A DNA stretch of 37,896 nucleotides from a virus. Position numbers and translations under genes: made by a program. How positions within the stretch are numbered: the first letter of the stretch is position 1; every line of letters starts with the position of its first letter. The stretch spans positions 1-37,896 of IMG/VR virus record IMGVR_UViG_3300042434_000145; one strand, 5' to 3'. A model generated the notes under the pieces. It was given only the letters and a program-made list of their open reading frames with translations, made no database searches and was not told where the DNA came from. Below are positions 8,298 to 37,896 of the stretch, piece after piece.

Positions 8298-8555
8298 CTA
8301 GGGATAAACCCTAGTCAGCTTGGCGCGCACATTGACGCGGAACTCAGAGGCGCCAGCGCGCACATAGGTGACGCCCTTGGGTGTGCGCTGGTGCACGTCA
8401 ACAGAGCCAGGTAGCGCAGGCGCGGCGGCCTGGCAGATGGTTTCGAGTTGGCCGCGCGTGATGTGACTGCGCGCGTAGAGCACGGACAACAGATCGTAGA
8501 GATGGTGGCGGTCGTTGACGTGGGGGAGAGATAAGAGGGGGGCTTTTGCAGGCAT
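8298..8555 (-). CDS. Hypothetical protein, first gene of the leftward block (85 aa)
   Basis: An 85-aa basic protein with no recognised family. The ATG at 8555 has a TTGGAG site 6 nt upstream, which favours it over a start 4 codons earlier. The N-terminal half contains a helical segment (LYDLLSVLYARSHITRGQLETI, split here as residues about 23-44) that could be a small DNA-binding bundle. The C-terminal half is beta-like with GVTYVRAG. Being promoter-proximal and beside the control region, it is a reasonable candidate for a regulator, but nothing shows this directly. Confidence 0.7.
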   Translation of the reverse strand: MPAKAPLLSLPHVNDRHHLYDLLSVLYARSHITRGQLETICQAAAPALPGSVDVHQRTPKGVTYVRAGASEFRVNVRAKLTRVYP

Positions 8556-8578: not shown

Positions 8579-8607
8579 ATTATAGCGTATAAATTTACTG
8601 GTGTGGG
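8579..8607 (-). promoter_or_regulatory. Predicted promoter of leftward block B
   Basis: A perfect -10 hexamer TATAAT (- strand, 8584-8579) lies 23 nt upstream of the start codon at 8555, inside a local AT-rich stretch. At a 17-nt spacing the -35 position reads CCCACA, a poor sigma-70 match but one of the recurring CCACA cores of this region. That suggests activation or competition by a factor binding those cores. Confidence 0.6.
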
Positions 8608-8681: not shown

Positions 8682-8708
8682 TGTGGTTAATGTGGTTAAT
8701 GTGTTTAC
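8682..8708 (+). repeat. Three tandem 9-bp iterons (TGTGGTTAA-type)
   Basis: TGTGGTTAA occurs at 8682-8690 and 8691-8699, and the degenerate copy TGTGTTTAC follows at 8700-8708 with no spacer. They share the TGTGG core with scattered inverted copies further right. They look like binding sites for an initiator or a repressor. Confidence 0.65.
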
Positions 8709-8730
8709 TAATAGATATAGAAATAAAATA

Positions 8731-8750
8731 TACTGTATAGGCATACAGTC
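8731..8750. promoter_or_regulatory. LexA (SOS-box)-like operator
   Basis: A CTGT-N8-ACAG dyad (8733-8736 and 8745-8748) within the perfect inverted repeat ACTGTAT/ATACAGT (8732-8738, 8743-8749). Compared with the 20-bp proteobacterial LexA consensus TACTG(TA)5CAGTA it matches 16 of 20 positions, missing only three central bases and the last one. A TATACT -10-like hexamer (8729-8734) overlaps it. Host LexA binding is inferred. Confidence 0.6.
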
Positions 8751-8906
8751 TTGTACACGGTTGCGCCCGCGTCGCCAGCCCCGTGCAAAAAGTACGCATT
8801 TGGGGGGTCGTTAACTGCAAACTCATTGCCCACATATCCACATTGACCACAAACCCACGGCCGGGGGCTGCGGGTCACGCAGCCGGATCAATTTCAATCG
8901 CATGGT

Positions 8907-8929
8907 CCACATGGCCCACATGACCCACG
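8907..8929 (+). repeat. 23-bp direct repeat, copy 1
   Basis: The block CCACATGGCCCACATGACCC plus ACG is repeated exactly at 8986-9008, 79 bp apart. Each copy contains two CCACAT cores and one CCCACG, so it is itself built of shorter iterons. Confidence 0.8.
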
Positions 8930-8985
8930 CTAGCCTGGCCGCGCGGCCGCAACCCACGCAAGCCGATCGACCGCCGGCCCGTTGC

Positions 8986-9008
8986 CCACATGGCCCACAT
9001 GACCCACG
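8986..9008 (+). repeat. 23-bp direct repeat, copy 2
   Basis: Exact second copy of the 8907-8929 block. A further GC-rich stretch with G-runs follows, then the AT-rich tract before the terminase promoter. Confidence 0.8.
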
Positions 9009-9157
9009 GCCGCGGGCTCGGGGCTGGCGGGCGGTCGGCTAGGGGGGAGGGGGGAGGGCCGACGGGGTGAAGGTCACAGCAGCGGAGGGGCTACAAACAA
9101 TTTATTTTTTGCTAAAAATCCACAGCGCCAAACAATTTTTCTTTTTTCAAAAATTTT

Positions 9158-9172: not shown

Positions 9173-9631
9173 ATGTTCGAAACCCTACCTTACGAGCCGC
9201 GTCAGTTGCGAGCGACTGAGGATCGGCTCCATCGCATATACAAGGCCGCCAAGCTCGGCCTCAAGGGTGACACTCTGGCCTTGGCCGCGGGCATGCTGCC
9301 CAGGGAGTACATGCAGCTAAAGCAGTTCGACAGCGTTGCGGAGTACGCAGAACTCAAGGGCCGCGCCGAGGGCGAGATGTTGGCAAGCGAGCAGCTACAC
9401 CAAGCGGCGGCGCAGGGCGACGCCAAGGCGGCGCTGGCGATCTTGCAGAACGTCCACGGTTGGGTGGCTAAGCAGGCCATCAGTGTGGATGTGAACCAGC
9501 AGATCAGCATCACGGCGGCGCTGCAAGAGGCGCAGCGGCGCGTGTTGGATGTTGTGGAGGTCATTAGTGAAGATACTTCTATGGATCGGCGTCTTTCTGT
9601 TCCTCCTGTGGCTGTTCAGTCCGTTGATTGA
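9173..9631 (+). CDS. Terminase small subunit
   Basis: A 152-aa DNA-recognition subunit of the packaging motor, placed directly before the large subunit. Residues 10-50 form a helical segment with the small-terminase helix-turn-helix look (RIYKAAKLGLKGDTLALAAG). The middle has an Ala-rich helix (GDAKAALAILQNVHGW, about residues 82-97) seen in many small terminases. The start codon has no ribosome binding site and sits 6 nt after a -10 element, suggesting leaderless translation. In P22-like phages this subunit selects the pac site. The assignment rests on position and general resemblance. Confidence 0.8.
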   Translation: MFETLPYEPRQLRATEDRLHRIYKAAKLGLKGDTLALAAGMLPREYMQLKQFDSVAEYAELKGRAEGEMLASEQLHQAAAQGDAKAALAILQNVHGWVAKQAISVDVNQQISITAALQEAQRRVLDVVEVISEDTSMDRRLSVPPVAVQSVD

Positions 9632-9637
9632 TCTTTA

Positions 9638-11167
9638 ATGCAGACCACACGCTACAGCGCGCAGGACGAGCAGGAACTGATGGCCCGGCTGTGGTCGCCG
9701 GCCATCAAGGACAACCCGCTGGCGTTTGTGATGTTCGCGTACCCGTGGGGCGACAAGGGTACGCCGCTGGAGCACTTCACTGGACCGCGCAAGTGGCAGC
9801 GCGAGGTGCTCACAGCCATCGCCGACCACATCAAAGAGAACAACGGACGCCTGGACTTTGACGTGCTGCGTTTGGCGGTCAGTTCGGGCCGCGGTATCGG
9901 CAAGTCGGCGCTAGTCAGTTGGATCACGGACTGGATGCTGTCCACGCGGATTGGCTCGACGACCATCATTTCGGCTAACTCCGAAAGCCAGCTACGTAGT
10001 ATCACCTGGGCCGAGTTGACAAAGTGGCTGGCGATGTCGATCAACAGCCACTGGTTTGAGGTCAGCGCCACGCGGCTGATGCCGGCCAAGTGGCTGACCG
10101 AGCTAGTCGAGCGCGATCTGCGAAAAGGCACGCGCTACTGGGGCGTCGAGGGGCGGCTGTGGTCGGCGGAGAACCCCGACGCCTACGCTGGCGTGCACAA
10201 CTTCGACGGCGTGATGGTGATTTTTGACGAGGCCTCGGGTATTGACGACTCAATCTGGGCCGTGACGAGCGGTTTTTTCACAGAAAACACGCCGAATCGC
10301 TTCTGGCTGGCGTTTTCTAACCCGCGGCGCAACACGGGGTACTTTTACGAGGCGTTTAACAGCAAACGCGAGTTCTGGAAGTCAAAAATTGTCGATGCCC
10401 GGACGGTCGAGGGCACCGACAAGGCGGTCTACGAGCAGATCATTGCTGAATACGGGCCGGACAGCAGCCAGGCGCACGTCGAGGTGTACGGTCAGTTCCC
10501 TAACGAGGGCGACGACCAGTTCATCAGCATCGGCATCGTAGACGCAGCGATGAAGCGGCAGCCGTACAAGGACGAATCGGCGCCGATTGTCATCGGCGTG
10601 GACCCGGCGCGGTTCGGGGCGGACGCGACCGTCATCGCCGTGCGGCAGGGGCGGGACATTTTGAAGCTGATCAGGCACCGGGGCGACGACACCATGACGG
10701 TGGTCGGGCACGTCATCGACGCGATCGAAGAGTTTAAGCCGACGCTGGTTAACATCGACGAGGGTGGGCTGGGCGCGGGTGTTGTGGACCGGCTCAAGGA
10801 GCAACGGTACAAGATCAGGGGTGTGAACTTCGGCAACAAAGCCAAGAACCCGATCATGTACGGCAACAAGCGGGCGGAAATCTGGGGTGAGATGCGCGAC
10901 TGGCTCAAGTCGGCAAGCGTGCCAAACGACAGGTTCTTGAAGTCTGACCTGATTTCGCCTAAGATGAAGCCAGATTCTCGTGGTACGATCTATCTGGAGT
11001 CCAAAAAGGACATGAAAGCCCGTGGTTTGGCAAGCCCCGACGCAGCAGATGCAATAGCGTTGACGTTTGCCTTTCCGGTGGCGCACCGCGAGATGCGCGA
11101 AGACAAGCAGCGCACCGCGCGGTCGATGGGCTACGGTACTGTCTCAACCTCATGGATGGGGGCGTAA
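9638..11167 (+). CDS. Terminase large subunit (ATPase and nuclease)
   Basis: The 509-aa packaging motor. The N-terminal ATPase domain has a Walker A loop SSGRGIGKSA at residues 82-91 (K89) and Walker B VIFDEA with D197 and catalytic E198. The C-terminal RNase-H-like nuclease shows D322 in IGVDPARFG, D374-E375 in NIDEGGLGAG and D471 in SPDAADAIAL, the expected acidic triad. It starts 6 nt after the small subunit stop without a clear ribosome binding site, so coupling is likely. Its TAA overlaps the next ATG as TAATG. Headful packaging is inferred from the P22-like head genes and the permuted contig. Confidence 0.95.
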   Translation: MQTTRYSAQDEQELMARLWSPAIKDNPLAFVMFAYPWGDKGTPLEHFTGPRKWQREVLTAIADHIKENNGRLDFDVLRLAVSSGRGIGKSALVSWITDWMLSTRIGSTTIISANSESQLRSITWAELTKWLAMSINSHWFEVSATRLMPAKWLTELVERDLRKGTRYWGVEGRLWSAENPDAYAGVHNFDGVMVIFDEASGIDDSIWAVTSGFFTENTPNRFWLAFSNPRRNTGYFYEAFNSKREFWKSKIVDARTVEGTDKAVYEQIIAEYGPDSSQAHVEVYGQFPNEGDDQFISIGIVDAAMKRQPYKDESAPIVIGVDPARFGADATVIAVRQGRDILKLIRHRGDDTMTVVGHVIDAIEEFKPTLVNIDEGGLGAGVVDRLKEQRYKIRGVNFGNKAKNPIMYGNKRAEIWGEMRDWLKSASVPNDRFLKSDLISPKMKPDSRGTIYLESKKDMKARGLASPDAADAIALTFAFPVAHREMREDKQRTARSMGYGTVSTSWMGA

Positions 11168-37156: not shown

Positions 37157-37896
37157 ATGAAACACTCATCCATCGTCGGCGGCTCTACCGCCAAGCGCGT
37201 CATCATGTGCCCCGGCTCTGTCAAGCTGGTGCAGAAGATGCCCCCGCAGCCCTCCAGCACCCACGCTGACCGCGGCACGATGCTGCACGACGTGATCAGC
37301 CGCATCCTGCTCGACCAAGGCGTTGTGATCGGGCAGTACAAACACAAGGACCATGTACTAACTCAGGAGCTTTACGATGAGAAGATTGCACCTGCCTTGG
37401 ACGCGCTCGACGAGATCGATCCCTACGGTCGGCTGGTATACGAGGTTGAGACGCGCGTTGGTTTCGGCGATCTTCTGCCTGGAGTGTTTGGTAGCACTGA
37501 TCTTGTTGGGCGTATTGACGACCGTGCTGTGGTCTTGGATTGGAAGTTTGGCGACGGTGTTGTCGTTGACGCTGTAGAGAACGCGCAACTGATGTTCTAC
37601 GCTGCCGCGGCCATGCGGACCGATGAACTCAAATGGGCCTTCGAGGGCGCCACCGAGATCGAGTGCATCATCGTGCAGCCGCCGGCGATCAGGCGCTGGG
37701 TGACGACCAAGGAGCGCATCGCTCAGTTCGAGGTCGAGTTGGTGCGGGCGGTTAAGACCGCGCTGCTGGAGGACGCGCCGCTGGCGCAGGGCGACCACTG
37801 CCGCTGGTGCGCGGCCAAGCCGGTGTGCCCGCAGATGACCGGCGCTGTCGATCGCGCGCTCAAGCAGCAATTGATCAACTTGGATGTTGACACCTT
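37157..37896 (+). CDS. DUF2800-type Fe-S nuclease, N-terminal part (3' truncated by window edge)
   Basis: The N-terminal 246 residues of the split DUF2800 gene, running off the end and joining in frame to the piece at 1-795. It begins MKHSSIVGGSTAKRVIMCPG, with C18 as the first of four Cys of the predicted Fe-S site. Two other in-frame ATGs exist at 37145 and 37148, but these lie inside the predicted -10 element, so 37157 is preferred. The copy overlapping the left end differs at 11 or so amino acids near residues 173-205, outside the catalytic D115, D128 and K130. Probably the first gene of the replication block. Confidence 0.88.
   Translation, partial: MKHSSIVGGSTAKRVIMCPGSVKLVQKMPPQPSSTHADRGTMLHDVISRILLDQGVVIGQYKHKDHVLTQELYDEKIAPALDALDEIDPYGRLVYEVETRVGFGDLLPGVFGSTDLVGRIDDRAVVLDWKFGDGVVVDAVENAQLMFYAAAAMRTDELKWAFEGATEIECIIVQPPAIRRWVTTKERIAQFEVELVRAVKTALLEDAPLAQGDHCRWCAAKPVCPQMTGAVDRALKQQLINLDVDT
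37478..37896. repeat. Terminal redundancy, right copy
   Basis: Gap-free counterpart of bases 1-419 at about 91% identity by eye count. Most differences fall between 37675 and 37777 and change the protein (for example K-to-A and H-to-V), whereas both ends are identical. Confidence 0.9.

Follow-up and report, generated by a model that had tools for sequence, protein, structure and literature searches.

A LexA operator-like palindrome in the control region of freshwater podoviruses without detected integrase or repressor genes

Control of phage genes by the LexA repressor of the host is known mainly from temperate phages, which have a lysogenic state to leave, and the locus analysed here raises the question of what a palindrome resembling a LexA operator could do in a phage that shows no recognisable genes for lysogeny. 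The palindrome (positions 8731–8750) lies in an IMG/VR podovirus record that was analysed over its whole length of 37,896 bp (the window) and that represents a complete or near-complete genome. The record exhibits a near-identical end redundancy of ~419 bp, which suggests a circular or permuted genome assembled from a mixed population; the redundant ends (1–419 vs 37478–37896) show mismatches and hence two haplotypes. The window phage is a freshwater phage, and its podovirus group is abundant in freshwater. Its nearest annotated relatives are MW202483 (TerL identity 77%) and phage DSL-LC05 (OR003940; TerL identity 69%), which belong to the same TerL family and for which genes for a DNA polymerase, a primase-like protein, an SNF2 helicase, a VRR-NUC protein and P22-like head proteins are annotated; DSL-LC05 has been predicted to be virulent by BACPHLIP (PMC10611076). 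Rhodoferax phage P26218 was considered as a close isolate and rejected, as its gene order differs.

The palindrome, TACTGTATAGGCATACAGTC, is identical to the LexA consensus TACTGTATATATATACAGTA at 16 of 20 positions, with both half-sites (CTGT and ACAG) exact and contained in perfect 7-bp arms (ACTGTAT/ATACAGT). It is the sole exact occurrence of CTGT-N8-ACAG in the window: this core alone has a chance expectation of ~0.7 per genome of the window's composition, and the longer pattern CTGTAT-N4-ATACAG occurred in none of 100 Markov genomes. Using an E. coli matrix made of 12 boxes from general knowledge, the site scores 19.5 bits, with the runner-up in the window at 10.0; a matrix derived from the lexA promoters of fetched Rhodoferax and Burkholderiales genomes agrees, with scores of 20.4 and 7.9, respectively. 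The site is located between a leftward block of small genes, headed by a gene for an 85-residue protein to which no function was assigned (8298–8555, minus strand), and a rightward block on the plus strand that starts with terS (probable terminase small subunit, 9173–9631), followed by terL (terminase large subunit, 9638–11167; our anchor for finding relatives), and that runs from terS through the virion genes to a holin and an endolysin. The assignment of terS is based on a weak PHROG match to terminase small subunits together with the annotation of DSL-LC05 at the same place. The locus thus combines the CTGT-N8-ACAG dyad and the high matrix score of an SOS box of the Beta/Gammaproteobacterial type. 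An earlier note on this DNA had described the 16-position match with exact half-sites, which the sequence bears out, and had assigned a LexA-type operator to the main intergenic control region, between divergent blocks, which the gene arrangement supports; its concern that such scores might be common across the genome is answered by the gap between the best site and the next. As a separate observation on the leftward block, a 219-residue DUF7227 protein (PF23872) recurs there in relatives L010, L033, L034, L048 and L049, as does a divergent, longer version of it.

The same note had seen no integrase or repressor, and profile-family searches came to the same result: neither integrases (PF00589) nor HTH_3 (PF01381) or S24 (PF00717) repressors were detected in 35 related records, and neither resolvases (PF00239) nor ParA-type ATPases (PF13614) in 21 related records, many of the records searched being fragments and about a dozen genome-sized. 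The records searched hence yielded neither the integrase or partition genes nor the CI/LexA-like repressor gene by which a temperate phage would be recognised; small proteins without a recognised family could still act as regulators. One relative, L006 (53,613 bp), was considered as an integrated prophage and rejected, given that its bases 1–22000 encode the portal and tail-fibre-like proteins of another phage; this part is unrelated to the phage group of the window, and the record is probably a chimeric assembly.

If the palindrome is read by a host LexA, comparable boxes should precede SOS genes of the host. Relatives of TerL at 82–85% identity are found in one Rhodoferax MAG and one Burkholderiales MAG, and Rhodoferax is the best-supported putative host genus, an assignment that rests on metagenome bins, which can be contaminated. 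LexA-type boxes precede lexA in 23 of the 24 genomes examined, and one of these host-side boxes, TACTGTATAGGAAAACAGTG, is close to TACTGTATAGGTATACAGTG of phage L004. A search of 26 Rhodoferax genomes for the strict pattern TACTGTATA-N5-ACAGTA gave only 4 places, three of which precede ORFs that were read from their translations, rather than by family search, as imuA then imuB. The same motif therefore stands before lexA and imuAB in the putative host genus, which indicates that the window box is written in the LexA dialect of this putative host.

In order to place the site among related phages, we scanned the 830 bp preceding terS and terL in each of 102 relatives whose records extend far enough upstream, all of them TerL-anchored IMG/VR matches as listed rather than an exhaustive set, and with related contigs being non-independent observations. 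Sites of at least 18 bits were found in 20 of the 102 relatives listed vs 0 of 1000 control windows, and sites of at least 16 bits in 33 of the 102 vs 3 of 1000; in the first set of relatives (again the matches listed), the true matrix found sites of at least 16 bits in 20 of 68, compared to 0–1 for ten column-permuted palindromic matrices. The sites differ in sequence (TACTGTATATATAGACAGTA, CACTGTATATAAACACAGTA, TACTGTATGGATGTACAGTA and TACTGTATATAATAACAGTA among others): their spacers vary (GGCATA, ATATAG, ATAAAG, GGATGT, ATAATA) and CTGTAT/ACAG remains constant, as is expected for LexA sites. In six aligned boxed phages the left half TACTGTAT is invariant, with flanks and spacers variable. 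At least 6 changes are needed to account for the LexA class on the TerL tree, and near-ideal sites of 24–26 bits occur in several lineages; the sites are hence concentrated before phage genes and recur in independent lineages, as would be looked for where a host regulator defers a phage. The earlier note had left room for a remnant, and the palindrome could in principle have arisen by chance or be a non-functional relic from a temperate ancestor under SOS control, which would agree with its loss from two close relatives (L006 and L013, with TerL nearly identical to that of the window, where CTGT has become TTGT and a 6-bp insertion is present) and with its lack in the majority of distant relatives. 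The excess over control windows at 18 bits, the invariant left half amid variable surroundings and the near-ideal sites of several lineages all argue against this, and we give such an origin very little credence. The note would have been contradicted by related phages lacking the dyad at this position, which is mostly not the case: many relatives keep it, but L006 and L013 have lost it and most of the wider group has other occupants. Approximately four fifths of the relatives listed carry something other than a LexA box at this place, and LexA control is therefore not essential to the group; the matching region of DSL-LC05 and MW202483 likewise holds no strong LexA box. Close variants such as TACTATATAGCTATAGAGTA are found among the occupants, which suggests that the palindrome is open to drift or to recognition by a different factor.

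The place itself behaves as a swappable slot. L064 and L070 are sister phages, next to each other on the TerL tree, and from the left repeats onward their alignment is almost perfect; the exception is ~45 bp in the promoter/operator slot (exchange region 2950–3200 in L064 and 3360–3600 in L070), where one phage carries AAGGGTATACCCTT and the other TACTGTATATAAGTACAGTG; their far-left flanks also differ. Further occupants in relatives include ACCATATTTCATATGGT, TTTCATAATGTGAAAT and the variants mentioned above, and LexA boxes are the commonest recognisable occupants. Such different palindromes at one position are reminiscent of immunity operators, and with small leftward proteins of unassigned fold at hand as possible regulators, the slot could serve as operator for a regulator that the phage encodes and that evolves fast, with the LexA-like half-site of the window arising by coincidence. 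Several results are at odds with this explanation. The 35 records contained no HTH_3 or S24 protein, and the occupant is independent of the first leftward gene: each of the gene types c15 and c11 is found beside several different occupants, L064 and L070 encode the same 62-residue c11 protein next to different slots, and relatives of the 85-residue protein of the window occur in phages with other occupants. Furthermore, the LexA-class sites fit the LexA pattern across many different spacers and are consistent with the host boxes, and in most non-LexA slots palindromes are not significant; a universal palindrome in every slot was rejected, with only 13 of 69 standing out. We therefore regard a phage-encoded regulator as unlikely and favour, with moderate confidence, the reading of 8731–8750 as a functional operator for host LexA in phages without a detected integrase or repressor, for which we infer host, binding, direction and effect.

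Other occupants were compared with host genomes as well. The second commonest, AAGGGTNNACCCTT, is found with at most 1 mismatch in 10 of 26 Rhodoferax genomes (control 0), but its exact form is only mildly enriched in the wider family, where 151 genomes gave 8 places compared to 2 in the control. In host-family genomes (L259–L266, L271–L278) it stands twice before a CoA-transferase-like gene, and it is possibly a host carbon-metabolism operator. TTTCATAATGTGAAAT was rejected as a host operator: 7 matches were found in 26 genomes at up to 1 mismatch (control 1), and the sole exact match among them lies in the phage contig that was binned in the MAG. The exchange between L064 and L070, together with the presence of AAGGGTNNACCCTT in Rhodoferax genomes, are leads towards a broader idea, namely that an interchangeable slot takes the sites of different host regulators, such that in related phages different host signals would control the same genes; this we put forward as a distinctly speculative proposal.

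The direction of the promoter that such an operator would control was addressed through consensus matches, which identify promoter-like elements on both strands around the box. A candidate rightward -10 element (TATACT, 8729–8734, plus strand) overlaps the left half of the box and would be preceded, at a spacer of 19, by a weak candidate -35 element (TTTACT, 8704–8709, plus strand); the TATACT hexamer recurs at box positions -2 to +3 in many LexA-class relatives. Alternatively, a leftward -10 element (TATATT, 8727–8732, minus strand) would place the box within the promoter spacer. Over 47 slots the -10 signal is modestly above shuffles and favours neither strand decisively, and the weak enrichment led us to reject the rightward -10 as proof of direction. 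A fixed leftward assignment was rejected as well: a strong leftward promoter lies 150–170 bp away, with TATAAT (8579–8584, minus strand), ~150 bp from the box, as the probable own promoter of the first leftward gene in the window and TTGACA-16-TACAAT, ~170 bp left of the box, as the clearest leftward promoter of the relatives. TATATT is also found just upstream of terS, which may have its own promoter there.

In the mechanism that we propose for the host-LexA operator, resident LexA would bind the box upon entry into an undamaged cell and block the promoter located there. Activation of RecA, by UV, by other damage or by ssDNA from phage replication, would then lead to self-cleavage of LexA and opening of the promoter. 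The better-scoring candidate would be the rightward promoter with TATACT in the box, feeding terS and the virion and lysis genes; the alternative would be the leftward promoter, whose spacer would contain the box. In either case, part of the lytic programme would be delayed or made dependent on damage, akin to lytic deferment and unlike classical lysogeny. Phages with the box thus probably read the damage alarm of their host to time some of their own genes.

Comparison with known systems reveals both likeness and difference. In the Bacillus thuringiensis phage GIL01, host LexA controls promoter P1 via SOS boxes (PMC4551915), and the window phage would resemble it in exhibiting a phage promoter with an SOS box for host LexA, here predicted from sequence; however, GIL01 is temperate, infects a Gram-positive host and requires gp7 as a helper of LexA, whereas the window carries a single CTGT-N8-ACAG box, without a known helper or any sign of a temperate state. 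CTXphi, tum of coliphage 186 and the antirepressor of N15 are cited as cases of LexA-controlled switch genes (PMC4551915, PMC9437464); these phages are temperate and possess their own repressors, in contrast to the window group, in which no repressor or integrase was found. A further precedent for the control of a phage by a host regulator is lytic deferment by CtrA (PMC9437464), together with the control of phi29 by Spo0A as described there: in these cases, operators of a host master regulator stand before phage genes and serve to delay lysis, as predicted here, but in the window group LexA would be the regulator and DNA damage the signal, and the box is interchangeable with several other occupants of one slot. 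That phages co-opt host LexA is already known, and the variant put forward here would be its use by phages without recognisable lysogeny genes; the open-access literature searched, the coverage of which was incomplete, yielded no such operator in a virulent podovirus. If the reading is correct, lytic-looking phages would also sense host DNA damage, for example from sunlight UV, and calls of 'virulent' from gene content would miss timing that is wired to the host. Host-controlled lytic delay would then become accessible to study through one 20-bp site, with natural relatives both with and without it.

The slot is set in an AT-rich island between left and right arrays of 9-mers. In the window, two tandem copies of TGTGGTTAA (8682–8699, plus strand) lie ~30 bp left of the slot, inverted copies (GCCCACATATCCACATTGACCACAA, 8828–8852, minus strand) lie on the right, as they do in relatives, and two further arrays follow on the minus strand (8902–8929 and 8982–9009). 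The 9-mer sequence is specific to each phage (TGTGGACAA, TTTGGGTCA, TGTGGTTAA, TGTTGGCTA), with left and right copies matching within a phage, and this co-change suggests sites for a co-evolving DNA-binding protein: an activator, an initiator or the small terminase. If the rightward promoter is real, the 9-mers would occupy the usual position of activator sites. The presence of a conserved small gene in the interval from slot to terS was rejected, as the ORF clusters seen there resemble translations of the 9-mer repeats. Matched tandem and inverted repeats around an AT-rich island that abuts terS, with no conserved small gene in between, would also suit a replication origin or packaging site, of which the palindrome would be a part rather than a transcriptional operator. 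Such a role is improbable in our view: GC skew does not turn at this place, and a structural function leaves unexplained why so many occupants match LexA rather than permuted motifs. Two further palindromes were observed in relatives. In L085, ~700 bp upstream of terL, the perfect palindrome GCATACAGTACTGTATGC lies inside the right arrays and exhibits LexA-like half-sites in inverted order, and in the leftward promoter region of L060 and L025 the palindrome TGTAAAAGATTCTTTTACA has the appearance of a second operator.
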